Shown piece after piece: positions 1-15,108 of a stretch of DNA of 15,108 bases. The notes under the pieces were generated by a model. The model was not told the DNA's origin. It searched no databases and worked only from the letters and a program-made list of their open reading frames with translations. Position 1 is the first letter of the stretch. The number at the start of each line of letters is the position of its first letter. This DNA comes from Candidatus Poribacteria bacterium. GTDB taxonomy: Bacteria > Poribacteria > DTPJ01 > WJIO01. A program made the position numbers and the translations under genes. The stretch spans positions 1-15,108 of the forward strand of contig WJIO01000382.1 of NCBI GenBank assembly GCA_014730235.1, given 5' to 3'.

Positions 1-1
1 G

Positions 2-748: not shown

Positions 749-756
749 GGTGTAAA

Positions 757-1380
757 ATGAAAATAGATTTGCATGTTCACTGTCGAGAACGTTCATCATG
801 TGCTAGTTCCTCTGAAGAAGAACAAATTCGCGCGGCTATTAATAATGGTCTTAACGCAATAGTTTTTACGGATCATGGTCGCTTTATGCCTCAAAAGCGA
901 TTGAAGGAACTGAATAAAAAATATGCTCCATTTAAGATTTACAGTGGAATTGAATTGGTGATAGAATGGGAAGATTTGCTTGTTATTGGTGTAAATAAAA
1001 GTTCCCTTGAGCGGAAAGAATGGAGCTATGTTAAATTGTACAACTTTGTTAAAAAGCATAAGGGTTTTATAGCCCTGGCCCATCCATTCCGCTATCATTC
1101 AATTGGGATAGATATAGAAAATTATCCTCCACATGCTATAGAGGCATATTCCAATAACATAAGCTCAGAAAACGTGAAGGATATTATGGAAGTTTCCAAT
1201 AGACTTGGTTTACCTGTATTATGCAATTCAGATGCCCATGATGAAGATCAAATTGGTAGTTATTATAATATTCTTGACAGAACCCCTGATAATGAGATGG
1301 AATTGGTGGATATGCTAATATCGGGTCAATTTAAGTGCAACCTGCCAGATCATATAAAAGGTGCTTTGTTTGCTTCTTAG
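757..1380 (+). CDS. PHP-domain metal-dependent phosphoesterase
   Basis: This 207-residue protein carries the PHP (polymerase and histidinol phosphatase) metal-site signature: DLHVH at residues 4-8, TDHG at 38-41, a glutamate in GIELV (E66), AHPFRYH at 108-114 and NSDAHD at 157-162. The family binds a two- or three-metal cluster and hydrolyses phosphoester bonds. The substrate cannot be read from sequence; small cytoplasmic PHP proteins include nucleotide and oligonucleotide phosphatases. There is no signal peptide. I chose ATG 757 because GAGG (747-750), overlapping the previous stop codon, sits six bases before it. An upstream in-frame TTG at 745 has no such site. The gene is tightly downstream of the PorV-like gene, so translation may be coupled. 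Its base composition stands out: three to four sampled 60-base lines give roughly 30-37% GC against about 52% in the preceding gene, suggesting separate ancestry. Confidence 0.85.
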   Translation: MKIDLHVHCRERSSCASSSEEEQIRAAINNGLNAIVFTDHGRFMPQKRLKELNKKYAPFKIYSGIELVIEWEDLLVIGVNKSSLERKEWSYVKLYNFVKKHKGFIALAHPFRYHSIGIDIENYPPHAIEAYSNNISSENVKDIMEVSNRLGLPVLCNSDAHDEDQIGSYYNILDRTPDNEMELVDMLISGQFKCNLPDHIKGALFAS

Positions 1381-1484
1381 TTACTATGTTTATTAGTGGA
1401 GTATATGGAGAATCCTGTGCCTGAAGAATGTATCAATCGGTGCGGCTTTGGAGTCAGATCGGTTATATGTAGGATATGAAAAGT

Positions 1485-2471
1485 TTAAAAATTTATAGAT
1501 ATTCCCACCTGGTGCGAGCCTGCTAAATCCTGCTTTTGATAGGAATAATCCACTGAGAATATTCCTTTTTTTATGCCAAAACCTGCCGAGAAGTCGGATT
1601 CCATCAATCCCAGACGCAAAGCTAATAATTTATTGTAGTTGTATTCTATGCCGAAACGCACTGTTGTTTTATATGCTGAGTCTCTGGCCAATGATATATT
1701 CAGGTCGTGTTTTACTCTATTCAGGGAATAGGCCATGCCCATTCGATAATTGGTGGGAAGGTTGTATTTTTGCTGCTGAGGTGTATTCCACTGGATTGAT
1801 GTATTTATGTCCTGAATATTCAGACCGATGCTGATTTGACCCACGTTTTCATAATCAAAGAGGCTTCCGGCATCCATGCGGAAAATTATTCCTGTGTCCA
1901 GTCCATTTCCGCTGGCCCGCTGACCGGCCAGGGATTGGGAAATTAGCTTTAAACTCCCTCCAACAGATAGGTTTGCCCATGTGTTTGTATAAAGCAATCC
2001 AGGGGTTATATTGATGCGGAAATTTTTTCCATAAGACAGGAATAAAGCGTTTTCCACGTCGCTGATATATCCCTCTGGTTCGGCTGACGGCCTGTATTTC
2101 AGGCTATTTTTTCGCTGACCTGAGTTGCCCTCTGGCTCCGGAAATATGGGTATTTCACCAACGCTGAAGCGCATCCAGTTTAGGCCTATAGAACCAATGG
2201 GCAGGGATTGGGAGTAACCGATGCAGTCAAAGCTGGCCAGACCTGAGAACTTGCTGGCGTGGGTAAGAATTATCTCCCGACCTTTTAGCTGACTCAGACC
2301 TGCGGGATTCCAGTAGCACGCGCTGCTGTCATCAGCAAGGGCTACAAAGGCACCACCCAAGGCAGTTGCCCTTACGCCTGAACCGATGTAAAGGAAATCG
2401 CTGGCGTAATTATCGGCAAGGGCTTTTGTTGGTAGTAGTATTAGCAGTATGATAATTGTCCTGATAAGCAT
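1485..2471 (-). CDS. PorV/UPF0164-like outer-membrane beta-barrel protein with signal peptide
   Basis: From ATG 2471 the protein is 328 residues. It begins with a clean Sec signal (MLIRTIIILLILLPTKALA, cleavage expected after ALA at residue 19). Next comes the hallmark N-terminal segment of the PorV/UPF0164 family, FLYIGSGVRATALGGAFVAL, then ADDSSACYWNPAGLSQL. The rest alternates as beta-strands and ends in GSHQVGISINF, a phenylalanine-terminated last strand as in barrels inserted by BAM. An in-frame ATG at 2504 would add 11 residues (MSIVQRPESRT) encoded by the heptamer repeat ahead of the signal peptide, so I reject it. It is a paralogue-level relative of the barrel protein at 2-748, and the two genes converge with the PHP gene between them. 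No strong Shine-Dalgarno is visible before ATG 2471. The stop is TAA. Known relatives include PorV and PorQ of type IX secretion, but nothing else here supports that system. Confidence 0.82.
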   Translation of the reverse strand: MLIRTIIILLILLPTKALADNYASDFLYIGSGVRATALGGAFVALADDSSACYWNPAGLSQLKGREIILTHASKFSGLASFDCIGYSQSLPIGSIGLNWMRFSVGEIPIFPEPEGNSGQRKNSLKYRPSAEPEGYISDVENALFLSYGKNFRINITPGLLYTNTWANLSVGGSLKLISQSLAGQRASGNGLDTGIIFRMDAGSLFDYENVGQISIGLNIQDINTSIQWNTPQQQKYNLPTNYRMGMAYSLNRVKHDLNISLARDSAYKTTVRFGIEYNYNKLLALRLGLMESDFSAGFGIKKGIFSVDYSYQKQDLAGSHQVGISINF

Positions 2472-2475
2472 TGTT

Positions 2476-2517
2476 CTGGACTCTGGACGCTGGACTATGG
2501 ACACTGGGCTATGGACT
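2476..2517. repeat. Heptamer tandem repeat, six units of (C/A)TGGACT
   Basis: Six consecutive 7-base units are visible: CTGGACT, CTGGACG, CTGGACT, ATGGACA, CTGGGCT and ATGGACT. The array begins four bases upstream of ATG 2471 of the barrel gene (minus strand), so it occupies the 5' untranslated region or ribosome-binding region. Seven is not a multiple of three, so unit gain or loss would change spacing and the frame of any longer N-terminal reading. Similar GGACT/AGTCC heptamer arrays are scattered through many bacterial genomes; whether it matters here is unknown. Confidence 0.8.
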
Positions 2518-2643
2518 TAGGATATAATAAATGGGGGTTTGTGTCAAATAGAAATATTTGGCCTGGTTGAGGTGTTTGATATACTATAGCATTATCTTAA
2601 TCTGTGAAAACCATTGGTCGTTATTTTTATATGAGGTGATTCC

Positions 2644-3738
2644 ATGTTTCGTATCAATCGAAGGGAGTTTATAAAGAGTATGGCAGCAGGTATTGGTGTT
2701 GTGAGTTTTGGGCCTGTTTTTGGTTCATTGGCCCAGGATGCTGGAAATAGTCATATACAGACGGTGCTGGGGCCTATTAAGCCTGATGAGCTTGGTTTGA
2801 CGCTTATCCATGAGCATGTGATGGTGGATTTTATCGGCGCTGATGAGGTCAATAAAGACCGATATGATCCGGATGAGGTTGTTGAGGTTATGCAGCCGTA
2901 TCTGGAGGAGATAAAAGCCCTGGGTGTTAACGGATTTGCCGAATGTACGCCCATGTTTCTGGCCCGGGACCCGGAGGTGCTGGCCCGGTTATCAAAGTCT
3001 GTGGGCATGCATATCATAACCAACACCGGGATGTATAAAGAGCCGTATTTGCCCCAGTATGCCTTTGAAAAATCGGCTCAGGAACTGGCGGATATGTGGA
3101 TCCATGAAGCCAGAAATGGCATAGAAAACACCGGCATAAAGCCTGGTTTTGTCAAGATCGCTGTGAATCCCGGCAGCCTTATTCCCATCCAGCAGAAGAT
3201 AGTCCGGGCAGCAGCCAGAACAAGTCTGGCTACCGGGCTTGTTATTGCATCCCATACGGGACACGGCGTAGCGGCTCTGGAAACTATGGATATTCTTGAA
3301 GAAGAGGGCCTTTCACCCGAAAGTTATATCTTCGTCCACGCCGGTTCTGAGAGCAACCAGGACTTTCATTTCCAGGTGGCAGAGCGCGGCGCATGGGTGG
3401 AATATGACCACATCGGGGAAAACAGCGCAGCCGGCGCATTGAAGCTGATCAAAAACATGCTGGAAAAAGGCTACGAAGACCAGCTTTTGCTCTCCCAGGA
3501 TGCGGGATGGTACAACGTAGGCCAACCAAAAGGCGGCAACATCCGGGGATTTGGTTATATTATCAGTGAATTCATGCCCATGATGGTGGAATCGGGCATA
3601 GATCAAAACACTGTGGACAAGCTGATGATAACGAATCCGGCTAAAGCCCTGACGGTAAAGAGTTCGGGCGGTGCAAAGGCCGTTAGTCCCGGGGGTAAAG
3701 CTGTTTCCACCTTTGGGAAAGTTAAGGGTGGGAAGTAA
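2644..3738 (+). CDS. Tat-exported phosphotriesterase-family (amidohydrolase superfamily) metal hydrolase
   Basis: This 364-residue protein starts with a textbook twin-arginine signal: NRREFIK at residues 5-11, a hydrophobic stretch to about residue 30 and a probable cleavage after SLA (28-30). It should therefore fold in the cytoplasm with its metals and be exported. The mature part opens with LGPIKPDELGLTLIHEH, the entry segment of the phosphotriesterase/lactonase family. All expected binuclear-metal ligands are present: H56 and H58 (HEH), bridging lysine K171 (GFVKIA), H204 (ASHTG), H232 (FVHAG) and D286 (SQDAGW). Family members hydrolyse phosphotriesters, lactones or acylated sugars; the natural substrate cannot be told from sequence. 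The usual end of the fold (ITNPAKAL, 329-336) is followed by an unusual tail rich in Lys, Gly, Ser and Ala up to residue 364. GAGGTGA at 2633-2639 is the ribosome-binding site, four bases before ATG. The gene is monocistronic by spacing. Confidence 0.88.
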   Translation: MFRINRREFIKSMAAGIGVVSFGPVFGSLAQDAGNSHIQTVLGPIKPDELGLTLIHEHVMVDFIGADEVNKDRYDPDEVVEVMQPYLEEIKALGVNGFAECTPMFLARDPEVLARLSKSVGMHIITNTGMYKEPYLPQYAFEKSAQELADMWIHEARNGIENTGIKPGFVKIAVNPGSLIPIQQKIVRAAARTSLATGLVIASHTGHGVAALETMDILEEEGLSPESYIFVHAGSESNQDFHFQVAERGAWVEYDHIGENSAAGALKLIKNMLEKGYEDQLLLSQDAGWYNVGQPKGGNIRGFGYIISEFMPMMVESGIDQNTVDKLMITNPAKALTVKSSGGAKAVSPGGKAVSTFGKVKGGK

Positions 3739-3852
3739 AGACGAAATTCTCGCAAAATACATCATAAATTCCCAATCTTTACCTGTAATTAACTCAATAT
3801 TTATAAAAATATGCTATAAAAGGGCGTTGGCTTATAGGCATATTGTCTTTTT

Positions 3853-4020
3853 TGGTTCTTCCGGATCGGATTTAGTGTGGTTATAGTTGAAAATTTTCTC
3901 AACTTGTCATTCCTGCTTCAAGCTTTTTGAAAAAGCTTGAGCAAAAAGGAATAAGAATTTCGTAGGAATGACAGCATACAGAAGTTTCTTACTTTTACCA
4001 CACTGAACCCGGAAGAGCCA
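3853..4020. mobile_element. MITE-like repeat copy A (complete, terminal inverted repeats)
   Basis: This copy fills most of the 315-base gap between two convergent genes. The left end reads TGGTTCTTCCGG (3853-3864) and the right end CCGGAAGAGCCA (4009-4020), an inverted pair with one mismatch. The pairing continues inward as TTTAGTGTGG against CCACACTGAA. The left repeat carries a five-base insertion (ATCGG after CCGG) that the other copies lack. Inside lies a decayed palindrome at 3905-3973, beginning TGTCATTCCTGC and ending GGAATGACA, with the same AAGCTTTTTGAAAAAGCTT centre as copy C on the left but extra bases on the right. The only flanking similarity is T-richness; no clear target duplication is visible. 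The first part of the gap (3739-3852) shows only AT-rich sequence with no gene or hairpin that I can support. Confidence 0.75.
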
Positions 4021-4027
4021 TATTTTT

Positions 4028-4066
4028 CAACATAGTGGCGTGTAAAAATGCCCCTATGTTGTTTTT
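4028..4066 (+). terminator. Rho-independent terminator reading rightward
   Basis: CAACATAG (4028-4035) pairs with CTATGTTG (4054-4061), and the stem resumes as GGC/GCC after one mismatch, with a loop around GTGTAAAAAT. The stem is followed at once by TTTTT (4062-4066). The T run is on the plus strand, so it should stop transcription coming from the phosphotriesterase-like gene about 290 bases upstream. The right arm overlaps the stop codon and last codons of the convergent GH57 gene. Confidence 0.6.
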
Positions 4067-5280
4067 ATATCTTTATTTTCAATTAACTTATATGCTATGG
4101 CCTGCTGGAAGTCCGTTAATATGGTGAAGAAGTTACCGATGGCTTTCCATATTGACCCGTAATGGCTGAAATAGCCATGTACATCCCCATCGCCTAACCA
4201 TTTGTTGCACATGAAATACAGGTGATCCGAAGTCTGGAGATTTCGCCATATTTTTATGAACTTTTCGTCTTTAGTGGCCTTTACCTGCTTTTCCAGATTT
4301 TTTAGCGCGCCAAAGGCAGCTTTTTGTGTGTCGTTACCCAGCCATGCGCTGCTGTCCCTCTCAAGATCTGCCCAGGATATGGTGCTGTATTCGTATACGT
4401 CTATCTCATCGTTGGGTGGTATGCTGGCGGCTACTTCGCCGGGAGTGGCGAATTTCAGGCTTTCGTATTTCATTATGGCATCAGGAAGGTGTCTCAGGAA
4501 TTCCATTATGCCTGTTTCCAGCCATTGATGCTCTCCAAAGGTCTCATAGTCCATGAATACATTGCAGGTCTCGCCGGTTATAGACGAAAGCCAGTAGGCG
4601 AAGTCATCGGCGGTTATTATCTTGTGGGAGAACCTGTAACCTACCTCGTCACTGACACCGTAATTTCGCATTAATAATTTGACATTGGAATTTTTCGCCT
4701 TATATACATAGTCCGGGGATCGCCATTGAAGTACATGGGGTAATCCCTCGGTAAGGACTGCGTTAAAGCCCATTTCCTGGGCGTTTTTCGCTATGGTATT
4801 GTTATAAAGGAGTTCGGTGTTTCTGAATGTAACGGGGGTGAATCCGAAGAGCTTCTTTATCTTATCTTTGTGCATTTCCACCTGGGCTTTGAACTCGTCT
4901 TTTTTTTCGTAAAGACCGGCCAGGGAGTGGTAATATGTCTCACCTAAAAATTCGGCACAACCGGTGTCGGCAAGCTTTTTGAATAGATCCAGGAGCTTTG
5001 GCTGGAAGGTTGCACACTGATCCAGAAATGTGCCGGAAATACCAAAAGCTACTTTGAATGGATTGGAAGTCTTTTTTAATCTTTCGACGCTGGAAAGGAT
5101 AATCTCCGTTGCGGGAAAATAGCATTTTTCGGATGCCCGGTTGAAGACAAGACTGTTAAGGCCTTCGTTGAAATAGGCTTTTTCCAGGTCTTTATGGTAA
5201 TGACCGGGGAAGCCTACCAGATCAACCTCGTTTAATCTTCGGGGTTGGTGTATCTGGAAATAGAACGTTATATATGCCAT
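4054..5280 (-). CDS. Glycoside hydrolase family 57 alpha-amylase-type enzyme
   Basis: This 408-residue protein has the conserved regions of GH57: region 1 FQIHQP (residues 8-13), region 2 AEFLGETYYHS (109-119), region 3 FRNTELLY (152-159) with nucleophile E156, region 4 FMDYETFGEHQ (242-252) with acid/base D244, and a last conserved stretch TSDHLYFM (350-357). The length and motifs resemble the short alpha-amylase-like GH57 group found in many anaerobes and archaea, which acts on alpha-1,4-glucans through a retaining mechanism. No signal peptide is present, so it probably handles intracellular storage glucan. The exact activity (amylase, branching or transferase) is uncertain. AGAGGT in the minus-strand leader lies about 11 bases before ATG 5280, slightly long spacing. 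A possible -10 (TATACT on the minus strand, 5327-5332) lies just outside repeat copy B, whose end would overlap the -35 position. The neighbouring iron-transport genes show no functional link. Confidence 0.87.
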   Translation of the reverse strand: MAYITFYFQIHQPRRLNEVDLVGFPGHYHKDLEKAYFNEGLNSLVFNRASEKCYFPATEIILSSVERLKKTSNPFKVAFGISGTFLDQCATFQPKLLDLFKKLADTGCAEFLGETYYHSLAGLYEKKDEFKAQVEMHKDKIKKLFGFTPVTFRNTELLYNNTIAKNAQEMGFNAVLTEGLPHVLQWRSPDYVYKAKNSNVKLLMRNYGVSDEVGYRFSHKIITADDFAYWLSSITGETCNVFMDYETFGEHQWLETGIMEFLRHLPDAIMKYESLKFATPGEVAASIPPNDEIDVYEYSTISWADLERDSSAWLGNDTQKAAFGALKNLEKQVKATKDEKFIKIWRNLQTSDHLYFMCNKWLGDGDVHGYFSHYGSIWKAIGNFFTILTDFQQAIAYKLIENKDIKTT

Positions 5281-5344
5281 GTTGTTTTTTTACCTCTTGG
5301 TTTTTCTGAATTAAGTGAGTGTGGTAAGTATATCTTTCATTTTT

Positions 5345-5463
5345 TGGTTCTTCCGGATTTAGTGTGGTTATAGTTGAAAATTCTCTCAGCTTGTCATTCC
5401 TGCGAAAGCAGGAATTCAGTCTTTATGCGGATCTACTGGATTCCTGCTTTCGCAGGAATGACA
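5345..5463. repeat. MITE-like repeat copy B (right end missing) with long internal hairpin
   Basis: The left terminal repeat is present (TGGTTCTTCCGG from 5345, then ATTTAGTGTGG and TTATAGTTGAAAA), matching copy A apart from its five-base insertion. The core differs from the other copies: two 24-base arms, 5392-5415 and 5440-5463, are perfect reverse complements, and each is itself a small palindrome built from ATTCCTGC, GAAA or TTTC, and GCAGG. After 5463 the right terminal repeat seen in A and C is absent. The copy lies downstream of feoB and upstream of the GH57 gene, so its hairpin could block 3'-end decay or limit read-through. Between it and feoB a weak inverted repeat, AATGTATAT/ATATACATT (5494-5533), is also visible. 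Confidence 0.72.
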
Positions 5464-5556
5464 ACTAAATTATATCCATTTTTTAACGATTACAATGTAT
5501 ATAAATTCTTTTCTTTTGATCAAAATATACATTAATATTTCCCTAAGTGTTGCCGG

Positions 5557-7584
5557 CTAACTTAATCCCAAAAGACTGCCAATCTGGAATATCATGGTGG
5601 CAAGCAGCCAGGCTAAAGCCAGAGAATAACTAACAGACAGGGATGTCCATTTCCATGAAGCAGTTTCCTTTTTTACGGCTGCTATGGTGGCGATACATGG
5701 AACATATATCAAAGTTACTACCATGAAGGCATAAGCTGACAATGGTGTCATGGCTGATTGTAGACGAGTTGATAGGGCCTGAGTGTCTTCCCCTGTTCCG
5801 TATAATACACCGAAAGTTCCTACTACTATTTCTTTTGCCACAAATCCAAATACCAGGGCCACTCCACCGCGCCAGTCAGAGCCAAAGGGTTTTACTACAG
5901 GTTCTATTACCTGACCCAGCATACCAGCGTAGCTGTCTTCACTGGCGTATTCAACACCCCAGGGGAATGTTCCCATGAACCATATTACGATAGAGCCTAC
6001 AAGGATTATGGTTCCCATCTTCTTGATAAACAGAGAACCCCGCTCCCACATATGAACCAGCGTTCCTTTAAGGGTTGGTACACGATAAGGCGGCAGTTCC
6101 AATACGAATGGGGCTGTTGGCCCCTTAAAGAATATATGTCCGAAAAGCTTACCTACTAAAACAGCGATGACGATGCCCATAAAATAGAGGGAAAAGATGA
6201 CAGTTCCTGCATGATTTGGAAAGAAAGCCGCAGTTAAAAGTGCGTAGACCGGAAGCCTCGCGCTGCATGACATTAATGGTGTTATGAGTATAGTTATTAT
6301 ACGGTCTTTTTTATTTTCCAGAGTTCTGGTGGCAAGGATTGCAGGCACGTTGCATCCAAAGCCCATGAGCATTGGTATAAAAGATTTTCCATGCAGGCCG
6401 AATATGTGCATAATCCGGTCTGTTATAAAAGCGGCTCTGGCCATGTAACCGCTATCTTCCAGAATTGATATTACAAAGAAAAGAGTGAATATATTGGGCA
6501 AAAAGACGGCTACACCGCCAACGCCACCGATGATTCCGTCAACCAGCAGGGAACGATACCATGTACGAGGTAAATTTTCCCGGAGGATTTCACTGAGCCA
6601 GCCGATGGCAAAATCAATCCATTCCATAGGGTAAGCCCCGATTTTGAAGGTCAACTGGAAGGTAAGCCACATGAGGAATAGAAAGATGGGTATTCCTACA
6701 AGACGGTTAAGAAGCACCTGATCCACACGATCTGACCATGTATGACGGTCTTCCCCGGTTCTGTGGATCACCTCATGGCCCACCCCGCTTATGAATCCAT
6801 AACGTCGGTCTATAATAACCGATTCGGCATCGTCTTTGAAAATCCTGTCTATATGCTCCATGCTGGTCTGGGCTGCTTTTACGGCTTGTTTTCCTTCACT
6901 GCTTTTGTTGAAGGCGTTGACAATTTTTTCGTCATTTTCCAGTATTTTCAAGGCAACCCAACGGGTTGGGTATTTTCGGGTTATGGGGTTATCCTCAATT
7001 GATTCGATAATGTTTTCAATTTTTGCTATTTCGTCACCCAGTTCACGTCCATAGTTTACCTTAACTTTCCGATCTTCCGGAGAGCCTTCCTGTAAGGTTT
7101 TAACTATAGTTTCCAGCAGTTCCTGAGTGCCTTTTTCTTTTGTTGCGATCATGGGAACTACCGGAACGTTTAACAGGCGGGATAAACGTTGGGCATCAAT
7201 AACCATACCCCTGGATTTAGCCACATCCACCATATTAAGGGCTATGACGAGATTTGCCCCCAGTTCCATAAGCTGGGTTGTGAGATAAAGATTCCTTTCT
7301 AGGTTTGAGGCATCCACGATATCAACCACTATGTCTGGTTTGTCTTTTACGATAAAATCCCGGGCTACTACTTCTTCCAGGGTATAGGTGGTAAGGCTGT
7401 AAGTACCGGGCAGGTCTACGACCTTCATCTCAATGTCTTTATACTTACATTTGCCTTCTTTTTTTTCGACGGTTACTCCAGGCCAGTTGCCGACATGCTG
7501 ATGCGCCCCGGTAATGCTATTGAATACCGTTGTTTTGCCGGAGTTGGGGTTGCCTGCCAGGGCTATTGTTATGGATTGTTTCAT
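5557..7584 (-). CDS. feoB: Ferrous iron transporter FeoB
   Basis: This 675-residue inner-membrane Fe(II) importer has an N-terminal G-protein domain with G1 GNPNSGKT (11-18), G2 around T38 in NWPGVTVEKKEG, G3 DLPG (57-60) and G4 NMVD (117-120). A helical linker runs to about 290, and the membrane part follows. Both gate repeats are visible: GCNVPAI at 410-416 with SCSARLPVY at 439-447, and FVAKEIVVGTFG at 581-592 with YVPCIATI at 627-634. Cysteines C411, C440 and C630 sit at the positions conserved in FeoB and implicated in iron passage. The length is slightly short of the roughly 770 residues of E. coli FeoB, ending after the last membrane helix without a cytoplasmic tail. ATG 7584 is chosen because the G1 motif then starts at the usual distance. 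The upstream site (CGGAAAATG) is a weak ribosome-binding site. It lies 79 bases after the repressor-FeoA gene and is probably translated from the same message. No feoC is seen; FeoA is supplied by the fusion upstream. Confidence 0.96.
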   Translation of the reverse strand: MKQSITIALAGNPNSGKTTVFNSITGAHQHVGNWPGVTVEKKEGKCKYKDIEMKVVDLPGTYSLTTYTLEEVVARDFIVKDKPDIVVDIVDASNLERNLYLTTQLMELGANLVIALNMVDVAKSRGMVIDAQRLSRLLNVPVVPMIATKEKGTQELLETIVKTLQEGSPEDRKVKVNYGRELGDEIAKIENIIESIEDNPITRKYPTRWVALKILENDEKIVNAFNKSSEGKQAVKAAQTSMEHIDRIFKDDAESVIIDRRYGFISGVGHEVIHRTGEDRHTWSDRVDQVLLNRLVGIPIFLFLMWLTFQLTFKIGAYPMEWIDFAIGWLSEILRENLPRTWYRSLLVDGIIGGVGGVAVFLPNIFTLFFVISILEDSGYMARAAFITDRIMHIFGLHGKSFIPMLMGFGCNVPAILATRTLENKKDRIITILITPLMSCSARLPVYALLTAAFFPNHAGTVIFSLYFMGIVIAVLVGKLFGHIFFKGPTAPFVLELPPYRVPTLKGTLVHMWERGSLFIKKMGTIILVGSIVIWFMGTFPWGVEYASEDSYAGMLGQVIEPVVKPFGSDWRGGVALVFGFVAKEIVVGTFGVLYGTGEDTQALSTRLQSAMTPLSAYAFMVVTLIYVPCIATIAAVKKETASWKWTSLSVSYSLALAWLLATMIFQIGSLLGLS

Positions 7585-7663
7585 TTTCCGTAATCCGTGT
7601 CAGTGATCTGTAATTTGTTAATAATTATGTTTCTTTTGAGTTATTGTGCTTTTGCAGGCCCTT

Positions 7664-8383
7664 TTAAATATTCTTATCCACAAATACATTACTTGCTTCG
7701 GCTTTTCTCAGGGACAGGTGGTAATCTTTTATTTTTATCTCCACTGGATCGCCCAGAGGTGCTACTCTTTCTATTTCTACATTTGCGCCGGGAACTACTC
7801 CCATATCCATCATGCGTCTTTTTGTAGGTCCTCTACCGCAGACCTTTGTTATTACAGCTTTTGTGCCAGTTTCAAGCATATCCAGAGATAATGTATCTTC
7901 TTCGGTTAATTCCTTTGTGCAAAAGGCTATAGGTGGTTTTTTACCTTTTTCCACGTAATCCTGAAACCTTATTATACATTCAGGCACGCCTTTTGGGCAG
8001 TCTTCTATACATTCAATGAACTTAAGCAAACGTTCAAGAGTTTCTGAACCTATAGCGTGTTCCATGCCGCAGGCGTCTTTTTCCGCGGTTTCGGTGTCCA
8101 TCTTGAGAACTTCAGTCAGGAATTTTAGGACTGCATCGTGACGACGGCGGATTTCCTGGGCTATTTTTTCACCTTTTGGCGTCAAAGCTACATATTCATA
8201 TTTTTCATGCTCAACCAGATTTCTTTTAGACAAGGTGCGCAAAGCACCGGTGACACTGGACATACTAACGTTCATATGTTTGGCTATATCCCTCACTCTC
8301 ACGTATTTCATTTCTTCATCGAGTAGAGATATGGCTTCTAAGTAATCTTCCATGCTGTTCGTAAGGGTTAAATTATTACCCAT
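7664..8383 (-). CDS. DtxR-family iron-dependent repressor fused to a C-terminal FeoA domain
   Basis: This 239-residue protein has three parts: a winged helix-turn-helix (about 5-70, with DIAKHMNVSMSSVTGALRTLSKRNLV), the metal-binding/dimerization domain (about 71-150), and a FeoA/SH3-like domain (about 165-235, LETGTKAVITKV, then GRGPTKRRMMDMGVVPG). Residues lining up with DtxR metal ligands are visible: M11, H82 in RRRHD, and C105, E108, H109 in ACGMEH. The cysteine at the first of these is the DtxR/IdeR pattern, favouring iron over manganese sensing. A cysteine-rich stretch (C125, C129, C136, C155) links the two halves. When iron is plentiful the protein should bind the palindrome in its own promoter and shut off itself and feoB; the FeoA part could also touch the FeoB G-domain. 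GAGGTG seven bases before ATG 8383 supports the start. DtxR-FeoA fusions are known in other bacteria, so the architecture is recognised, though the dual role is inferred. Confidence 0.92.
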   Translation of the reverse strand: MGNNLTLTNSMEDYLEAISLLDEEMKYVRVRDIAKHMNVSMSSVTGALRTLSKRNLVEHEKYEYVALTPKGEKIAQEIRRRHDAVLKFLTEVLKMDTETAEKDACGMEHAIGSETLERLLKFIECIEDCPKGVPECIIRFQDYVEKGKKPPIAFCTKELTEEDTLSLDMLETGTKAVITKVCGRGPTKRRMMDMGVVPGANVEIERVAPLGDPVEIKIKDYHLSLRKAEASNVFVDKNI

Positions 8384-8410
8384 ATTGGAACACCTCTTTG
8401 ATTGAATTGA

Positions 8411-8434
8411 TAGAGTTAGGTATACCTAACTCTA
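8411..8434. promoter_or_regulatory. DtxR/IdeR-type iron operator palindrome
   Basis: TAGAGTTAGG, TATA and CCTAACTCTA form a perfect 24-base palindrome, extendable by one more A-T pair. Its centre, TTAGG-N4-CCTAA, matches the core of the DtxR/IdeR box. It begins at the -10 hexamer and spans the expected transcription start, so a bound repressor would block RNA polymerase. The fused repressor gene begins 27 bases further on. Confidence 0.9.
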
Positions 8435-8462
8435 TTATATAAGGTTAATAAAATAATGTCAA
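8434..8462 (-). promoter_or_regulatory. Consensus sigma-70 promoter for the repressor-FeoA/feoB unit
   Basis: On the minus strand TTGACA (8462-8457) and TATAAT (8439-8434) are separated by exactly 17 bases, matching both housekeeping hexamers perfectly. The start of transcription should fall near 8427, inside the operator palindrome. Such a strong promoter fits a unit held off by repressor and released when iron is scarce. Confidence 0.88.
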
Positions 8463-8488
8463 GACATTTTTGGGAGTTTAAAATTTAA

Positions 8489-8627
8489 GTTCTTCCGGGT
8501 TCAGTGTGGTTATAATTGAAAATTCCCTCAGCTTGTCATTCCTGCTTCAAGCTTTTTGAAAAAGCTTGAAGCAGGAATGACAGCATAAAGAAGTTTCTTA
8601 TCTTTACCACACTGAACCCGGAAGAAC
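8489..8627. mobile_element. MITE-like repeat copy C (complete, perfect terminal inverted repeats)
   Basis: This is the best-preserved copy. The 22 bases at 8489-8510 (GTTCTTCCGGGTTCAGTG and four more) are the exact reverse complement of 8606-8627. Inside, 8534-8582 is a perfect palindrome with two 24-base arms around a single G, starting TGTCATTCCTGC and centred on AAGCTTTTTGAAAAAGCTT. The spacers between ends and core (TATAATTGAAAATTCCCTC on the left, GCATAAAGAAGTTTCTTATC on the right) match copies A and D. It lies 27 bases upstream of the iron promoter's -35, in the gap between divergent genes. No coding capacity exists, so any movement would need a transposase from elsewhere. Flanks show no certain target duplication. 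Confidence 0.82.
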
Positions 8628-8782
8628 CAAAACTTATAACAAAATAACTTTATCGCTACCTAAAATTAATCTTTATATGCTATAATTCGCGCGGTTAATT
8701 GTAATTATAGATAATAGATAGAAGTAATGATGAATGGATCAGGTTTCAAACGCATTTCCATAAATATATGAGATTTGAATAT

Positions 8783-8811
8783 TTGAAGGTCTTTGTAATT
8801 ACTGCTATAAT
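8783..8811 (+). promoter_or_regulatory. Candidate sigma-70 promoter for phnX
   Basis: TTGAAG (8783-8788), a 17-base spacer and TATAAT (8806-8811) are preceded by TGC, an extended -10. Transcripts would start near 8818 and carry about 170 untranslated bases, including the inverted-repeat cluster, before phnX. No known phosphate-regulator box is evident. Confidence 0.5.
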
Positions 8812-8850
8812 AATATTTGTTTTTCGTTGGTTTCCGCTTTTGGTATGGGG

Positions 8851-8910
8851 AAGCTCTTGCTAGGCCTTTTGGCCAATAACGATTGCAGGGCTCAGCAGGA
8901 GCTTCGGCCT
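8851..8910. repeat. Inverted-repeat cluster in the phnX leader
   Basis: AAGCTCTTGCT (8851-8861) pairs with AGCAGGAGCTT (8894-8904) with one mismatch. Between them GGCC-TTTT-GGCC forms a small hairpin, and CGGCCTA just downstream (from 8905) can compete for TAGGCC. The outer and inner pairings could alternate. It may be a REP-like intergenic palindrome or a structured leader; the sequence alone does not decide. Confidence 0.5.
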
Positions 8911-8990
8911 ACTATTTTGAATTTTCCACATTTAATTTTGAAGAGCCAAATTTATATGCTGGGTAATGGTAAAAAATTGGGGGACTATAA

Positions 8991-9821
8991 ATGGATTTTG
9001 TATTTCGCAGGATTTATCGGGGGCCGGTTAAGGCTGTAATATTTGATCTGGCTGGAACCACAGTTGATTATGGTAGCTGCGCGCCGGCGGGATCTTTTAT
9101 AGAGCTTTTTAAAAGGCATGATATAGAAATTACTAACAAACAAGCCCGGGAGCCTATGGGAATGCACAAAAAAGACCATATTCGGACTATACTCCAGATG
9201 GAGCCGGTATCAAAGCAGTGGGAGAACAAGCAGGACAGAAGATGGAATGAGGACGACGTTAGTTCCATGTATGAGGAATTTATACCTATACAGTTAGAGT
9301 GTCTGCCTGATTACCTGGAACTGATCCCCGGAACGCTGGAGATATTCAGCAAGCTTTTAGCCCGTAATATCAAGATCGGAGTGACTACAGGTTATAACCG
9401 GGAGATGCTGGATCTTATTACAGATGGCATTGAAAAACAGGGATTTGTTCCTGACCTGGCTATATGTGCCACCGATGTTCCTGGCGGCAGACCTGCTCCC
9501 TGGATGATATTCAAAAGTATGCAGGATATGAATGTTTATCCTCCTGAATCGGTAATAAAGATCGGAGATACCATACCGGATATAGAAGCCGGCCTTAACG
9601 CAGGTGTGTGGACTGTGGGTGTGGCAAAAACCGGTAATATGCTGGGAATGGGCTATGATGAAATGACCTCTATGTCTGATGAAGAACTGGCTCCGCTTAT
9701 GGTATCCGCCTATGAATCAATGTATAAAGCCGGAGCCCAATATGTTGTCGATGGTGTGGGTGAGAGTATGAAGGCTATATATGATATTACCAAAAAGGTG
9801 GAAGATGGGGAAAGACCTTAA
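8991..9821 (+). CDS. phnX: Phosphonoacetaldehyde hydrolase (phosphonatase)
   Basis: This 276-residue HAD-superfamily enzyme cleaves the carbon-phosphorus bond of phosphonoacetaldehyde, giving acetaldehyde and phosphate, in the cytoplasm. The nucleophile loop is FDLAGTTVD (18-26, nucleophile D19). The cap carries MGMHKKDH (56-63), where K60 aligns with the Schiff-base lysine that distinguishes phosphonatases from other HAD phosphatases. Further family motifs are TTGYNREM (132-139), GGRPAPWMIF (165-174) and KIGDTIPDIEAG (190-201) with the Mg-binding aspartates. The length is close to the usual 265-270. ATG 8991 is preceded by GGGGGA at good spacing. A class-III PLP enzyme follows 218 bases later, with repeat copy D in between. 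The expected upstream step, from 2-aminoethylphosphonate or its hydroxy form to phosphonoacetaldehyde, would be done by that neighbour. No class-V transaminase phnW lies in the window. Confidence 0.94.
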   Translation: MDFVFRRIYRGPVKAVIFDLAGTTVDYGSCAPAGSFIELFKRHDIEITNKQAREPMGMHKKDHIRTILQMEPVSKQWENKQDRRWNEDDVSSMYEEFIPIQLECLPDYLELIPGTLEIFSKLLARNIKIGVTTGYNREMLDLITDGIEKQGFVPDLAICATDVPGGRPAPWMIFKSMQDMNVYPPESVIKIGDTIPDIEAGLNAGVWTVGVAKTGNMLGMGYDEMTSMSDEELAPLMVSAYESMYKAGAQYVVDGVGESMKAIYDITKKVEDGERP

Positions 9822-9866
9822 TAGACTCTGGGTGCTATATAAAACTCAAATATTTCCTGAAAATTC

Positions 9867-9965
9867 TGGTTCTTCCGGGTTTAGTGTGGTAATAATTTGA
9901 AATTCTCTCAACTTGTCATTCCTGCTTTCGCAGGAATGACAGCATAAAGACGTTTCTTATCTTTT
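9867..9965. repeat. MITE-like repeat copy D (right end missing)
   Basis: The left end (TGGTTCTTCCGGGTTTAGTG) begins at 9867. The core at 9914-9941 is a minimal hairpin with 12-base arms, TGTCATTCCTGC/GCAGGAATGACA, around TTTC. The right spacer GCATAAAGACGTTTCTTATC follows as in copies A and C, but homology stops near 9965, before the terminal CACACTGAACCC repeat. It separates phnX from the class-III PLP enzyme gene, so its hairpin may reduce read-through or stabilise the phnX message. Confidence 0.75.
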
Positions 9966-10039
9966 ACTCCATTTTTGATATATAAAAAGTGCGAAAATAT
10001 AGTAAGACTTAAAACTTTTGACATTGGATATTCTGTGGT

Positions 10040-11356
10040 ATGAAGAATAAAGATATTAACAAACCAGAGCGTTCTGAAGGGGATATAAACCTTTCTCCGC
10101 TTCGTAAAAAATGGCTGACAGATAGTATAGATCATAAGACTCAAAAGATACTGGATGAAGATGCGAAGTATTTTTTGCATCAATCCCTGTCTACCCCATG
10201 TCTGGACGTTTTGAAATCCTGCCAGGGAAGCAGCATAACCGACATGCAGGATCGGCAGTTCCTGGACTTTCACGGCAACAGCGTCCATCAGGTGGGCTAT
10301 GGGAATGAGTATGTTTTGAAAGCTGTTAAAGATCAACTGGATATACTTCCCTTCTGTCCCAGGAGATATACAAACCGAACTGCTGTGGAATTGGCAAAGA
10401 AATTAGCAGAGATTACTCCGGGAAAACTTAACAAGGTGCTTTTAGCCCCTGGAGGTACTACAGTTGTTGGTATGGCCCTTAAGCTGGCCAGGGTTGTTAC
10501 CGGAAGATTTAAGACTATAAGCTGGTGGGATTCGTTTCACGGTGCGTCATTGGATGCTATAAGCATAGGTGGGGAAGCCCTTTTCCGAAGCGGGATGGGG
10601 CCTCTTTTACCGGGTGCTATTCACGTTCCGCCGCCTTCTTCATTCGGTGGAGTATCGGAAATGGAGTCGGCGGATTACGTGGAATACGTCATGGATCATG
10701 AAGGGTATATAGGGGCTTTTATTGCAGAGCCTGTGAGATGCACAAATGTTATTATCCCCTCGCCTGAATACTGGAAGCGGATAAGGGAGATATGCGATAA
10801 ACACGGCGCGCTGCTTATCTTTGATGAAATACCTATATGTCTCGGTCGAACAGGTCGGATGTTTGCCTGTGAATATTTCGGTATTACACCGGATATACTT
10901 TGCATTGGCAAAGGTCTGGGCGGGGGAGTGTTTCCCATGGCGGCTATGATAACCGGGGAAGAACTAGACGCTGCTCATGATAAGGCTTTAGGACACTATA
11001 CCCACGAAAAAAGCCCGGTGGGATGCGCGGCGGCTCTGGCTACTATTGAATACATAGAAAAACATGACCTGGTGGAAAAATCCAGATGCATGGGTGAGGA
11101 AACTGTGGAACGGTTGTGGAAAATGGCCAAGAACTATGAATTTATAAAAGACATTAGGGGCCTTGGGCTTCTTATTGGTGTGGAACTGGATAATGATGGA
11201 AAAGCCGAAAAGATATTGTATTCGGCTCTGGAAAAGGGATTGAGCTTTAAAGTATCTATGGGTAATGTGTTGACTTTGACGCCGTCTTTGACTATCAGTC
11301 AGGACGAGATGGAAAAGGCGTTGGAGATTTTGAGAGAGTGTTTTGATAGTTTTTAA
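10040..11356 (+). CDS. Class-III aminotransferase-fold PLP enzyme; candidate hydroxy-aminoethylphosphonate ammonia-lyase (PbfA-like) or AEP transaminase
   Basis: This 438-residue fold-type-I PLP enzyme shows the class-III pattern: phosphate-binding APGGTTVVGMALKLAR (136-151), SWWDSFHG (161-168), EPVRC (230-234), IFDEIPICLGRTG (260-272) with D262 for the pyridine nitrogen, and IGKGLGGGVFP (289-299) with Schiff-base lysine K291, then HYTHEKSP (319-326). Its place beside phnX suggests it makes phosphonoacetaldehyde. PbfA, a class-III-fold lyase acting on (R)-1-hydroxy-2-aminoethylphosphonate, is known from phosphonatase clusters. The C-terminal segment VLTLTPSLTIS (410-420) lacks the arginine that several true class-III transaminases use to bind the carboxylate of the amino donor or acceptor, which mildly favours a lyase. 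Ordinary amino-acid transaminase activity remains possible. ATG 10040 has only a poor ribosome-binding site. The PQQ/methyltransferase gene follows after 20 bases, very likely in the same transcript. Confidence 0.85.
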   Translation: MKNKDINKPERSEGDINLSPLRKKWLTDSIDHKTQKILDEDAKYFLHQSLSTPCLDVLKSCQGSSITDMQDRQFLDFHGNSVHQVGYGNEYVLKAVKDQLDILPFCPRRYTNRTAVELAKKLAEITPGKLNKVLLAPGGTTVVGMALKLARVVTGRFKTISWWDSFHGASLDAISIGGEALFRSGMGPLLPGAIHVPPPSSFGGVSEMESADYVEYVMDHEGYIGAFIAEPVRCTNVIIPSPEYWKRIREICDKHGALLIFDEIPICLGRTGRMFACEYFGITPDILCIGKGLGGGVFPMAAMITGEELDAAHDKALGHYTHEKSPVGCAAALATIEYIEKHDLVEKSRCMGEETVERLWKMAKNYEFIKDIRGLGLLIGVELDNDGKAEKILYSALEKGLSFKVSMGNVLTLTPSLTISQDEMEKALEILRECFDSF

Positions 11357-11376
11357 AGTACATTAGAAAGGGAAGT

Positions 11377-14300
11377 ATGATGAAGAAGCTGTATTTACTT
11401 TTCGGCGTTTTTCTGATCCTTGGTTTATGTAGATCGGTAATGGCTGGAAACTGGCCCACTTATCAGATGGATTATTCCAGAAGCGGGGTCAGTGACGAAA
11501 AGCTGAATTTACCTCTGAAAGAGGTGTGGTCTTATAACGCAAGGCATGCACCTGAACCAGCATGGCCGCCGCCTGCAAAGGCTGATTACTGGCATAACCT
11601 TATAAACCCCAGGGCCAGGGTTACTTATGATAGGGCATTTCACCTGGTTTCTGTGGATGGTTCTGTTTATTTCAGTTCATCTGCGGATGACAAGGTTTAT
11701 TGTCTTGATGCCTCTACAGGGGAGGAAAAATGGGCTTTCTTTACAGAAGGGCCTGTAAGACTTGCACCTACTGTATGGGAAAATCGTGTATACTTCGGTT
11801 CGGATGATGGCTACGTTTACTGCCTTAAGGCCAACAACGGCGAACTTGTATGGAAATACAGAGCTTCACCGGAGGATAGAAGAATTCCGGGCAACGGTCG
11901 GATAATATCCACATGGCCTGTGCGAAGCGGTGTTGTTGTTGACAGGAACATCGCATATTTCTGCTCAGGTATATTCCCTAAAGAAGGGGTTTATGTATGC
12001 GCCCTGGACGCGCTGGATGGTTCGGAAATCTGGAAGGTAAAACAGGATATTTCCCCCCAGGGTTATATGCTGGCTTCAAAAGACCGACTATACCTGCCGT
12101 TGGGAAGAGTGTCTCCTGCTGTAGTAAACCGGGAAAACGGTGAACTTCTTGGTATTTTAAGCTGTCCCAGGGCTGAAGGTGGAACCTATACCTTGTTGAC
12201 TGATGAAGCCCTAATTTCAGGCCCCGGAACACAGTTGACAGCTTTTCATCCTGAGGAAAACGACAGGCTGGCGACTTTTAACGGCTATATGGTTATTGTA
12301 AGCAGTGATACCTCTTATCTCCTTTCGGAACAGACCCTTACGGCCGTTGACAGAAAAAAACAGGCTGATCTATACGGTCAACGGGAAGGTTATATTGACA
12401 GCAAAGCAATGCTGGGACAAAAACTTACTGAATTACGAGATCAAAGGGGTGAACTCAGCGGCGAGGCCCTGGAATATATAGACAACAAAATCAACGAAGT
12501 TGTGGAGCAGATGTCAGAACTGGACAGCAAGCTGAAAGCCCTGGAAGGTAAAGAATATAACTGGCATAAGCCATGCGATAAAATCTACTACTCTATGGCC
12601 CTGGCTGGAGATACCCTTTATATGGGCGGTGATGGCGTGATTGAGGCTGTCAACGTAAAAGATGGCAAGACAATATGGGAAGCAAAAGTTGATGGCAAGG
12701 CCTACAGCCTTATAGTTGCTAACAAGCAGATTATGGTCAGCACCGATAAAGGTTCTATACACTGCTTCGGTTCTGGAAACGTATCACAGGCTAAACAAGA
12801 CGAAAATTCTGATGCTTTTGACGATATTCCAAAAGAATGTGTTTCAGCCATTGGTCGGATCGCTGAAGAACTGGAAATAAGTAAGGGTTACTGCTTTGTG
12901 GTGGGATGCGAAGATGGATGCCTGGCCCGTGAACTGGTCAAAGCTACCAAAATGCAGATCATCTGTGTCTGTGATGATGAGAAAAAGGCTGAGGAAATGC
13001 GGGAGAAGTTTGACAGGGAAGGGCTTTACGGTGTCCGGGTATCTGTGCATAACGTAGAACTGGACAAGCTGCCTTATTCGGATTACCTGGCAAACCTGGT
13101 GGTTTCTGAAAGCATGCTTATGAAGGGTGAAATGCCAACTTCGCAGGAAGAGGTTTACAGGATACTGAAACCCTTTGGCGGTCTGGCCTATCTGGGTTCT
13201 TATGAAGATATTAATAAGAACATGCTGGAAAGCTGGGTAGACAAGAACAAAGGCTGGTATACAGTTGATGGCGACGGCATGTGGGCTATAGTTCACAGAG
13301 CACCCCTGGCTAACAGCGGCGAATGGACTCATGTCTATGCCGATCCGGGAAATACTACATGCAGCAACGACCAGTTGATCTACGGTAAAACCAGGGTTCA
13401 ATGGTTTGGTAACCCGGGGCCTGCTCTTATGCTAGACAGGCATCACCGAGCTTCTGTGTCGTTATTCAAAAACGGCAGGCTTTTTGTTCCAGCCGATGAC
13501 TTCTTTATTGGTGTGGACGCCTATAATGGTACAATTTTGTGGGAAACAGAAGTTCCTGGATCAAGGCGTGTTGGCGCTAATCGGGACGCCGGTAACATGG
13601 TAGCTACCGATGATTTTCTTTATGTTACCACAAACGACGAATGCTGGGCCATTGACGCCGCAACAGGTGAAGTTGCAGAGAAGCTGAAAGTTCCACAACT
13701 TATAGATGGGGAAGTTCGTCACTGGGGCTACCTGGCGTGTATAGACGATAAGATTTACGGCAGCGGCAGAAAAGAAGAGGCTATTTACAACGAAACAAGC
13801 AAATCCGCCGACTGGGAACTGGCCTGGGGCGATTTCAAGCGCATGATAACCAGCGACTATATGTTCTGTATGGACAGGCACAGCGGAGATGTGATCTGGA
13901 CATACAAAGACGGTATTATCATAAATCCGGCCACAGCTATCGGCAACGGCAGGCTTTACCTCGTTGAAAGCCAAAATTCCGAAGTTTTTACTGACGATGA
14001 CGGCAAAGTCCAGCTTATCCCTCTCCTTAAGGACGGCGCCAATATGCTGGCTATCAACCTTGAAACCGGTGATGTTGATTGGAAGCATAAGGTTGATTTT
14101 GGCGTGGCACATCATATTATATATCTCATCTATTCCGATGGAATCCTGCTTTTTACAGGATCAATGAATGTAAAGAACAACACTCACTATTATCTCAGGG
14201 CTTTTAATGCTGATGATGGCTCTTTTATATGGGAATCTGACCACAGGAATAACGTGCCGGGAGTCGGCGGCGATCACGGCGAACAGGTTCATCATCCGGT

Positions 14301-14652
14301 TGTTATAGATGGTATCGTGTATGCTGAACCGGTTGCATATAACCTGGAGACAGGCAAAAGGGTTAATACTGACGGCAGGAGCGGCGAATGGGAGATGCCC
14401 AGAAGGAAGGGCTGTGGAACTGTGTCAGGTTCATCATACTGCCTGTTCTATCGAGATCATGAGCCATCCATGTATGACCTGAGACCCAGCGGCGGACTAA
14501 CAAAGCTAAACCATGTAACCCGCCTGGGTTGCTGGATTAATGTTATTCCGGCTGGCGGTCTGGTTTTGATCCCTGAAGCCAGTTCGGGTTGTACCTGTTC
14601 TTACCCGCTTCAGACATCAATGGCCTTTATTCCTTATAATCAGGTTGATTAA
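11377..14652 (+). CDS. Exported PQQ-like beta-propeller protein with inserted coiled coil and methyltransferase-fold domain
   Basis: This 1091-residue protein begins with a Sec signal (MMKKLYLLFGVFLILGLCRS, cleavage probably after VMA at 23). Propeller repeats follow in two blocks, about 24-325 with 396-465 and about 646-1091. Typical blades are KVYCLDASTGEEKWAF (106-121) and YVYCLKANNGELVWKY (146-161). A charged, heptad-like helix (about 323-395) is inserted in the first propeller. Between the propellers (about 485-640) lies a class-I methyltransferase-like domain: CFVVGCEDGCLARELV (506-521) at the SAM loop, IICVCDDE (528-535) as strand 2, then ELDKLPYSDYLANLVVSE (561-578). The glycine loop is GCEDGC rather than GxGxG, and an exported protein would not meet SAM, so catalysis is doubtful. 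The end has GCWINVIPAGGLVLIPEASS and a GCTC cysteine pair, a conserved block I recall in planctomycete-type relatives. It starts 20 bases after the PLP-enzyme gene with a GGGA site. Function is unknown. Confidence 0.85.
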   Translation: MMKKLYLLFGVFLILGLCRSVMAGNWPTYQMDYSRSGVSDEKLNLPLKEVWSYNARHAPEPAWPPPAKADYWHNLINPRARVTYDRAFHLVSVDGSVYFSSSADDKVYCLDASTGEEKWAFFTEGPVRLAPTVWENRVYFGSDDGYVYCLKANNGELVWKYRASPEDRRIPGNGRIISTWPVRSGVVVDRNIAYFCSGIFPKEGVYVCALDALDGSEIWKVKQDISPQGYMLASKDRLYLPLGRVSPAVVNRENGELLGILSCPRAEGGTYTLLTDEALISGPGTQLTAFHPEENDRLATFNGYMVIVSSDTSYLLSEQTLTAVDRKKQADLYGQREGYIDSKAMLGQKLTELRDQRGELSGEALEYIDNKINEVVEQMSELDSKLKALEGKEYNWHKPCDKIYYSMALAGDTLYMGGDGVIEAVNVKDGKTIWEAKVDGKAYSLIVANKQIMVSTDKGSIHCFGSGNVSQAKQDENSDAFDDIPKECVSAIGRIAEELEISKGYCFVVGCEDGCLARELVKATKMQIICVCDDEKKAEEMREKFDREGLYGVRVSVHNVELDKLPYSDYLANLVVSESMLMKGEMPTSQEEVYRILKPFGGLAYLGSYEDINKNMLESWVDKNKGWYTVDGDGMWAIVHRAPLANSGEWTHVYADPGNTTCSNDQLIYGKTRVQWFGNPGPALMLDRHHRASVSLFKNGRLFVPADDFFIGVDAYNGTILWETEVPGSRRVGANRDAGNMVATDDFLYVTTNDECWAIDAATGEVAEKLKVPQLIDGEVRHWGYLACIDDKIYGSGRKEEAIYNETSKSADWELAWGDFKRMITSDYMFCMDRHSGDVIWTYKDGIIINPATAIGNGRLYLVESQNSEVFTDDDGKVQLIPLLKDGANMLAINLETGDVDWKHKVDFGVAHHIIYLIYSDGILLFTGSMNVKNNTHYYLRAFNADDGSFIWESDHRNNVPGVGGDHGEQVHHPVVIDGIVYAEPVAYNLETGKRVNTDGRSGEWEMPRRKGCGTVSGSSYCLFYRDHEPSMYDLRPSGGLTKLNHVTRLGCWINVIPAGGLVLIPEASSGCTCSYPLQTSMAFIPYNQVD

Positions 14653-14681
14653 TACTTTGACTTTATTTTATTGTGATTGTT

Positions 14682-14712
14682 TAGTTTGAGTTTGGATGCC
14701 AAACTCAAACTA
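14682..14712 (+). terminator. Hairpin after the PQQ/methyltransferase-fold gene, possible terminator
   Basis: TAGTTTGAGTTTGG and CCAAACTCAAACTA form 14 perfect pairs around ATG, 29 bases after the stop codon. No T run follows (TATCAATATAAG), so termination would be imperfect or the hairpin may serve as a 3'-end stabiliser. Confidence 0.5.
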
Positions 14713-14730
14713 TATCAATATAAGACTGGG

Positions 14731-14753
14731 TTCTTGCATTCGCAAGAATGACA
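14731..14753. repeat. Isolated core palindrome related to the repeat family
   Basis: TTCTTGC-ATTC-GCAAGAA followed by TGACA resembles the TTTC-looped core of copy D (ATTCCTGC-TTTC-GCAGGAATGACA) with compensatory changes that preserve pairing. No terminal CTTCCGG repeats are nearby, so it is a core without the surrounding element. Confidence 0.5.
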
Positions 14754-14793
14754 AAACTACACTTATACTATATTAAGAAAATGGAGGACTTAA

Positions 14794-15108
14794 GTGAAAT
14801 TAAGATTTTCGCTGTCAAGTGTATTTGCGCTTTTTGTTGCTGTTATATTGGTTTCCGCAAGTTATGGTGATATAGATCCGGATACCTGCGTTGGTGTGTG
14901 GCTGTTTGACGCTGGTGAAGGGGATACTGCAATAGATTCCTCTGGGAATGATCTTGATGGAACAATATTCAACGGCCCGGAATGGGTTGACGGGAAGTTT
15001 AGTAAAGCCCTTAAATTTGATGGCGCGGATGATTATATAAATCTGCCTACAACAGTATCAGACGGTTGGGAAGGTTTGACAGTTTTAGCATGGATAACCA
15101 TAGAACTA
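14794..15108 (+). CDS. Secreted LamG/concanavalin-A-like domain protein, 3' truncated by the window edge
   Basis: The start is GTG 14794, preceded by GGAGG (14783-14787) at seven bases, a strong site that fixes the start. The 105 visible residues begin with a signal peptide (MKLRFSLSSVFALFVAVILV, then SASYG) and a likely cleavage near residue 23-25. The mature part is the opening of a LamG/laminin-G jelly-roll domain: CVGVWLFDAGEGDTAIDSS at about 32-50, then GNDLDGTIFNGPEWVDGKF (51-69) and ALKFDGADDYINLP (72-85). These domains usually bind or enclose polysaccharide or glycoprotein at the cell surface, and are expanded in Poribacteria and some Planctomycetes. The frame is open to the last base, so length and further domains are unknown. 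The hairpin and core palindrome upstream suggest its own promoter rather than the preceding operon. Confidence 0.82.
   Translation, partial: MKLRFSLSSVFALFVAVILVSASYGDIDPDTCVGVWLFDAGEGDTAIDSSGNDLDGTIFNGPEWVDGKFSKALKFDGADDYINLPTTVSDGWEGLTVLAWITIEL

Follow-up and report, generated by a model that had tools for sequence, protein, structure and literature searches.

A gene for a putatively exported double-propeller protein starts only a few bases behind a phosphonate-degradation gene in a member of the Candidatus Poribacteria. Its position raises the question of whether the protein takes part in the use of phosphonates. Well studied as the enzymes of phosphonate breakdown are, the same cannot, to our knowledge, be said of the way in which cells acquire (R)-1-hydroxy-2-aminoethylphosphonate (R-HAEP) from glycans or lipids. 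The window analyzed here, that is, the entire stretch of DNA, comprises 15,108 nt (assembly GCA_014730235.1, contig WJIO01000382.1, positions 1-15,108, forward strand).

The locus

The features of the locus are as follows:

8991-9821, + strand: phnX, phosphonoacetaldehyde hydrolase, a HAD enzyme, 276 aa (TIGR01422, 325 bits, cut-off 220; motifs FDLAGTTVDYG and MGMHKKDHIR)
9914-9941, no strand: palindromic repeat between phnX and pbfA, a 12-bp perfect inverted repeat with arms TGTCATTCCTGC/GCAGGAATGACA
10040-11356, + strand: pbfA, class-III PLP enzyme, 438 aa (NF049939, 662 bits, curated equivalog-domain cut-off 525)
11357-11376, + strand: pbfA-propeller intergenic junction, with Shine-Dalgarno-like AAAGGGAAG (from the sequence)
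11377-14652, + strand: exported (predicted) double-propeller/methyltransferase-fold protein, 1091 aa (open reading frame, PQQ_2 repeats, AlphaFold model, fold matches)
14682-14712, no strand: perfect 14-bp inverted repeat shortly 3' of the propeller stop, a possible transcript end

Judged by their scores, the products of phnX and pbfA are the known cytosolic route from R-HAEP through phosphonoacetaldehyde to acetaldehyde and phosphate. In that route, PbfA yields phosphonoacetaldehyde and ammonia, and PhnX cleaves the phosphonoacetaldehyde (PMC8154272). R-HAEP itself occurs in an amoebal surface polysaccharide, and HAEP is found in a membrane lipid of Bdellovibrio stolpii (PMC8154272). As in the described pathway (PMC8154272), both enzymes are encoded in one neighborhood and each scores above its curated cut-off; unlike it, the window has no phnW and carries the propeller gene behind pbfA. 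Propellers are not mentioned in PMC8154272.

The pairing of pbfA with the propeller gene is real. The two genes lie on the same strand, and the pbfA stop codon (11354-11356) is separated from the propeller ATG (11377) by 20 bases; the open reading frames and coordinates thus bear out the original prediction on this point. The propeller gene has its own ribosome-binding-like AAAGGGAAG close 5' of the ATG, and we infer from the sequence that it shares a transcript with pbfA. The same prediction had phnX as the next gene upstream, which it is, and spoke of a propeller “locked” to the phosphonate enzyme, a description that fits the pbfA-propeller pair only: phnX lies 218 bases from pbfA, and the palindromic repeat stands in this gap. 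A single tight phnX-pbfA-propeller operon is therefore unsupported. The gap also holds a promoter-like site (9975-10003), which is a consensus match only.

Other elements of the window deserve mention. Further copies of the palindrome are found at 5393-5415 and 5440-5462, so that this REP-like element, ATTCCTGCTTTCGCAGGAATGAC, is present three times (the 5393-5462 region and 9914-9941), where chance predicts none. FeoB and a DtxR-type repressor fused to a FeoA domain are encoded divergently from phnX (5557-8383). At 2644-3738 lies a gene for a phosphotriesterase-family protein (PF02126) with an export-signal-like N-terminus, which falls under every curated NCBIfam cut-off.

Architecture of the propeller protein

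The AlphaFold model of the 1091-residue protein has a mean pLDDT of 92.4, and a second model, of residues 468-1091, has a pLDDT of 91.1. Together with fold matches, the model describes two eight-bladed PQQ/BamB-type propellers with a class I methyltransferase-fold domain between them:

11377-11445, + strand: signal peptide, residues 1-23 (from the sequence, with cleavage after VMA judged by eye; model helix 2-19)
11446-12777, + strand: propeller 1, eight-bladed, residues 24-467 (Z 35.0, 2.3 A over 330 residues to 9p3g)
12832-13296, + strand: class I methyltransferase-fold domain, residues ~486-640 (3dlc profile E 7.4e-13; Foldseek 3dlc rmsd 2.6 A)
13324-14640, + strand: propeller 2, residues ~650-1088 (best Foldseek match tetrathionate hydrolase, E 9e-20; Z 28.4 to 9p3g)
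14413-14598, + strand: near-invariant cysteines C1013, C1052, C1072 and C1074 (family consensus HGCG, PGCWIN, GCTC)

The signal-peptide-like N-terminus suggests that the protein is exported. With the PQQ_2 repeats, the confident model and the 3dlc matches, it agrees with the earlier description of an exported PQQ-propeller/methyltransferase-fold fusion.

Propeller 1 also matches tetrathionate hydrolase (7cqy, Z 34.6) and BamB (Z ~30), and it contains a helical hairpin insert (residues 326-389). Each propeller superposes well on BamB/YfgL, Rv3035, YxaL and tetrathionate hydrolase (Z 24-35). Unlike these proteins, the window protein has two propellers in one chain, the methyltransferase-fold domain between them, the hairpin insert and the four near-invariant cysteines. 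Among 98 family members, and counting only sequences with a residue at the position, the cysteines are conserved in 93/93 (C1013), 92/92 (C1052), 91/92 (C1072) and 88/92 (C1074); all four, which belong to propeller 2, are present in the window copy.

The likeness to BamB is one of fold only, as the protein scores 77 bits against the TIGR03300 cut-off of 285. Its score for PQQ-dependent alcohol dehydrogenases is 59.5 bits, against a TIGR03075 cut-off of 480. Residues 486-640 do have the class I SAM methyltransferase fold, by profile and by structure, and resemble in both respects enzymes such as 3dlc (MMP1179). They differ from such enzymes in belonging to a presumably exported protein and in having partly degenerate cofactor motifs: motif I and the acidic loop read VVGCEDG...VCDD in the window copy against a family consensus of VLGcgdG...vEpD. 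Heme binding was considered and rejected, there being no CxxCH in the protein.

Neighborhoods of the propeller family

One pattern scan of genome contigs returned 462 propeller relatives. By record title, the best 80 of these belong to Hydrogenedentota, Planctomycetota, Omnitrophota, Bacteroidota, Verrucomicrobiota, KSB1 and other groups, and in none of the 80 does phnX or pbfA occur at a distance of up to 10 kb. The organism's own genome contains several full or partial paralogues of the propeller, none near phosphonate genes, and no other copy in its phylum lies near phnX or pbfA. At 40 further propeller loci of pbfA-bearing genomes, which partly overlap the best 80, phnX, pbfA, phnW, phnA and phnY were absent from the neighborhood (0/40). 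Little weight attaches to this last count, since few matches would be expected by chance in any case; it does exclude a strong family-wide phosphonate link. Viewed from the propeller side, then, the enrichment of homologues near phosphonate genes that the original prediction called for largely failed to appear, and these counts led us to reject the propeller as a phosphonate-dedicated family.

At the level of whole genomes, a close propeller is present in 8, PbfA in 6 and PhnX in 13 of the 97 genomes around the window's own, and propeller and phosphonate genes share a contig in the window only. Propellers co-occur with pbfA in 5/6 and 4/5 pbfA genomes, a pattern that relatedness or lifestyle may explain. 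With the phylum's largest family dropped, the PbfA co-occurrence has P 0.0045, relatedness and lifestyle being uncontrolled, and that of PhnX is not significant (P 0.10).

The nearest relatives of the window propeller (L096 and L097) adjoin other genes, in L096 a ceramidase-like one. Indeed, Ceramidase_alk genes lie near some relatives, the closest included (L096, 6053-7414; L111, 13602-15008). HAEP is known also as a sphingolipid head group.

A recurrent partner module

Neighbor-ORF clustering and targeted tblastn revealed a recurrent set of genes beside many propellers. These encode an FtsX-type permease and a LolD-type ATPase, an exported protein of ~410 residues that has no Pfam family (hereafter the CEC protein), a Mod-type solute-binding protein and permease, and MoaD-like and MoeB/ThiF-like proteins; an exported methyltransferase-like protein is sometimes present. 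A CLC motif is invariant in the FtsX permease (12/12), and a CEC-type motif occurs in 21/22 of the ~410-residue proteins. In the window's phylum, all 8 propeller genomes also have the CEC protein, which is found in 9 genomes (P 6e-6 without the largest family). Among 246 Planctomycetota, the propeller is present in 7/8 CEC genomes (P 2e-7). The domains of these partners are those of known FtsX/LolD (MacB-type) ABC transporters and of Mod-type and MoaD/MoeB-type genes; the difference from such transporters lies in their combination with the propeller/methyltransferase protein and CxC proteins.

The FtsX-CLC, LolD and CEC genes do not adjoin the window propeller. They form a block, with an exported methyltransferase-like gene, on another contig of the same genome (C313; L182, 7406-11221), and the window propeller is thus best viewed as an off-cluster copy.

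Two side observations concern this module. In two genomes from the phylum of the window, a UxuA-like and a PHP-like gene stand inside it where flavobacteria have pbfA (L183, 10862-13513; L184, 6422-9117). Further, a DUF5690 membrane protein, possibly a transporter, is the neighbor of phnX in two of the phylum's genomes and of the module in another two (L087, 7767-9149; L071, 16076-17326; L073, 5317-6594). A limited literature search returned no papers on DUF5690.

The view from pbfA

We also considered 50 pbfA loci other than that of the window: 5 from its phylum, 12 from propeller-bearing genomes, 4 more from Planctomycetota and 29 from Flavobacteriaceae besides Snuella. Some are close to contig ends and hence have short flanks. 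Propeller or partner genes lie within 10 kb of pbfA in 5/50, spread over three other phyla. Snuella sedimenti (L195) shares with a relative (L229) the gene order solute-binding protein, pbfA, ModB, ModC, MoaD, ThiF, FtsX, LolD, propeller and CEC protein; in another member of the Flavobacteriaceae (L223), pbfA is convergent and stands behind the same set. In a Verrucomicrobium (L235), genes for ThiF, the CEC protein, FtsX and LolD adjoin phnW, phnA, phnY and pbfA, the first three of these phosphonate genes each scoring above cut-off. Finally, in a planctomycete (L190), a split propeller precedes pbfA by 4 kb, the interval being occupied by genes for a transposase and a transporter and by phnW.

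Partner genes (CEC, FtsX) occur near pbfA 4 times against an expected 0.23, a figure that assumes one such partner locus in every genome; P is 1e-4 if all loci are independent and 0.02 if the flavobacterial loci are counted once. Proximity of the propeller alone to pbfA is not significant: across 21 genomes, we counted 2 cases where chance predicts 0.65 (P 0.14). The pbfA genes of the three flavobacterial loci fall in one starred clade of five, so that the five linked loci amount to about three independent events. Orthology of the window propeller with the pbfA-linked flavobacterial propellers is unsupported, as they belong to different subfamilies (FastTree, long branches). Therefore the link, if functional, arose more than once. 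The undescribed functional association that had been predicted thus survives as a weak recurrent link seen from the pbfA side (5/50 loci), and finds no echo among the best 80 relatives.

As an aside, the combination of pbfA with phnY and phnA has been stated to be confined to Proteobacteria (PMC12366243). We observed it outside that group in the Verrucomicrobium (L235, 939-6171), a planctomycete (L201, ~9373-16189) and a member of the Flavobacteriaceae (L208, ~9283-14454).

Weighing the explanations

What, then, accounts for the pair? It is quite possible that the neighborhood is accidental, one of many propeller paralogues having landed behind pbfA, where it may be co-transcribed while being unrelated to phosphonates. 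The paralogues of the same genome, remote from phosphonate genes, speak for an accident, as do the missing linkage among the best 80 relatives, the other genes (such as the ceramidase-like one) adjoining the nearest relatives and a propeller-only proximity to pbfA that is within chance. Against it, pbfA is found within the partner module or next to it in Flavobacteriaceae and Verrucomicrobiota, and close to a propeller in Planctomycetota. The genome co-occurrence also counts against an accident, though kinship or lifestyle may account for it. The explanation that we favor, tentatively and as the likeliest of those considered, is a loose link: a general envelope module would operate alongside cytosolic enzymes that can replace one another, PbfA among them. 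We prefer it because pbfA is rare in the module and because other enzymes, UxuA-like and PHP-like, hold a similar position there. A loose recurrent association of pbfA with the module is plausible.

A more specialized function is harder to reconcile with the data. The original prediction considered capture or sensing of a phosphonate-bearing surface polymer. Outside the cell, the propeller could bind or process glycans or lipids that carry phosphonates and so feed R-HAEP or AEP to PbfA and PhnX. Propellers are often glycan-binding, the junction with pbfA is short, and the polysaccharide and lipid sources of (R-)HAEP noted above would offer substrates. Yet the family is far broader than phosphonate use, no hydrolase-type catalytic domain was found in the 1091-residue protein, and by fold the protein matches BamB, Rv3035, YxaL and tetrathionate hydrolase. 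We consider such dedicated acquisition improbable, and a dedicated phosphonate role of the propeller is unsupported. It is more improbable still that the protein is an active exported enzyme, either a PQQ-dependent dehydrogenase or a functional SAM methyltransferase. Sequence matches to quinoprotein alcohol dehydrogenases and SAM methyltransferases invite this idea, and the family consensus does keep the glycine-rich loop and the acidic residue. However, no NCBIfam PQQ-enzyme model comes close to its cut-off, and the window copy carries E in place of a consensus G and C in place of a consensus E. Further, we know of no SAM available outside the cytoplasm.

If the loose link that we favor is correct, the window propeller would be an off-cluster paralogue of a broad envelope module that includes the FtsX/LolD ABC transporter with its CLC motif, the CEC protein, the Mod-type importer and the MoaD/MoeB-like pair. 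This module may convey thiols, or metal bound to a thiol, through the envelope during nutrient uptake, a proposal that we draw from the motifs only. The cytosolic enzyme encoded alongside would be exchangeable, with PbfA as one example; because of this interchangeability, the propeller would serve the envelope side of a shared uptake program and would not itself act on phosphonates. A bolder version, which we think rather unlikely, sees in the module an envelope system that has escaped description, extends over several phyla and depends on thiols or metal. Equipped with Mod-type import and sulfur carriers of the MoaD/MoeB type, it would have been drawn into phosphonate use repeatedly, PbfA being one of its cytosolic enzymes. 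The window would then be its compact, two-gene form.

Implications

Individually, pbfA, phnX and the propeller fold are already known. In a limited literature search, we found no description of the pbfA-propeller pairing, of the CxC module or of the propeller/methyltransferase-CxC combination. Should the envelope module take part in phosphonate use, it would be candidate machinery for obtaining R-HAEP from glycans or lipids. Apart from phosphonates, this co-occurring envelope set of a permease, an exported partner and a propeller, with their CxC motifs, is found in at least five phyla and presents a tractable target for study.
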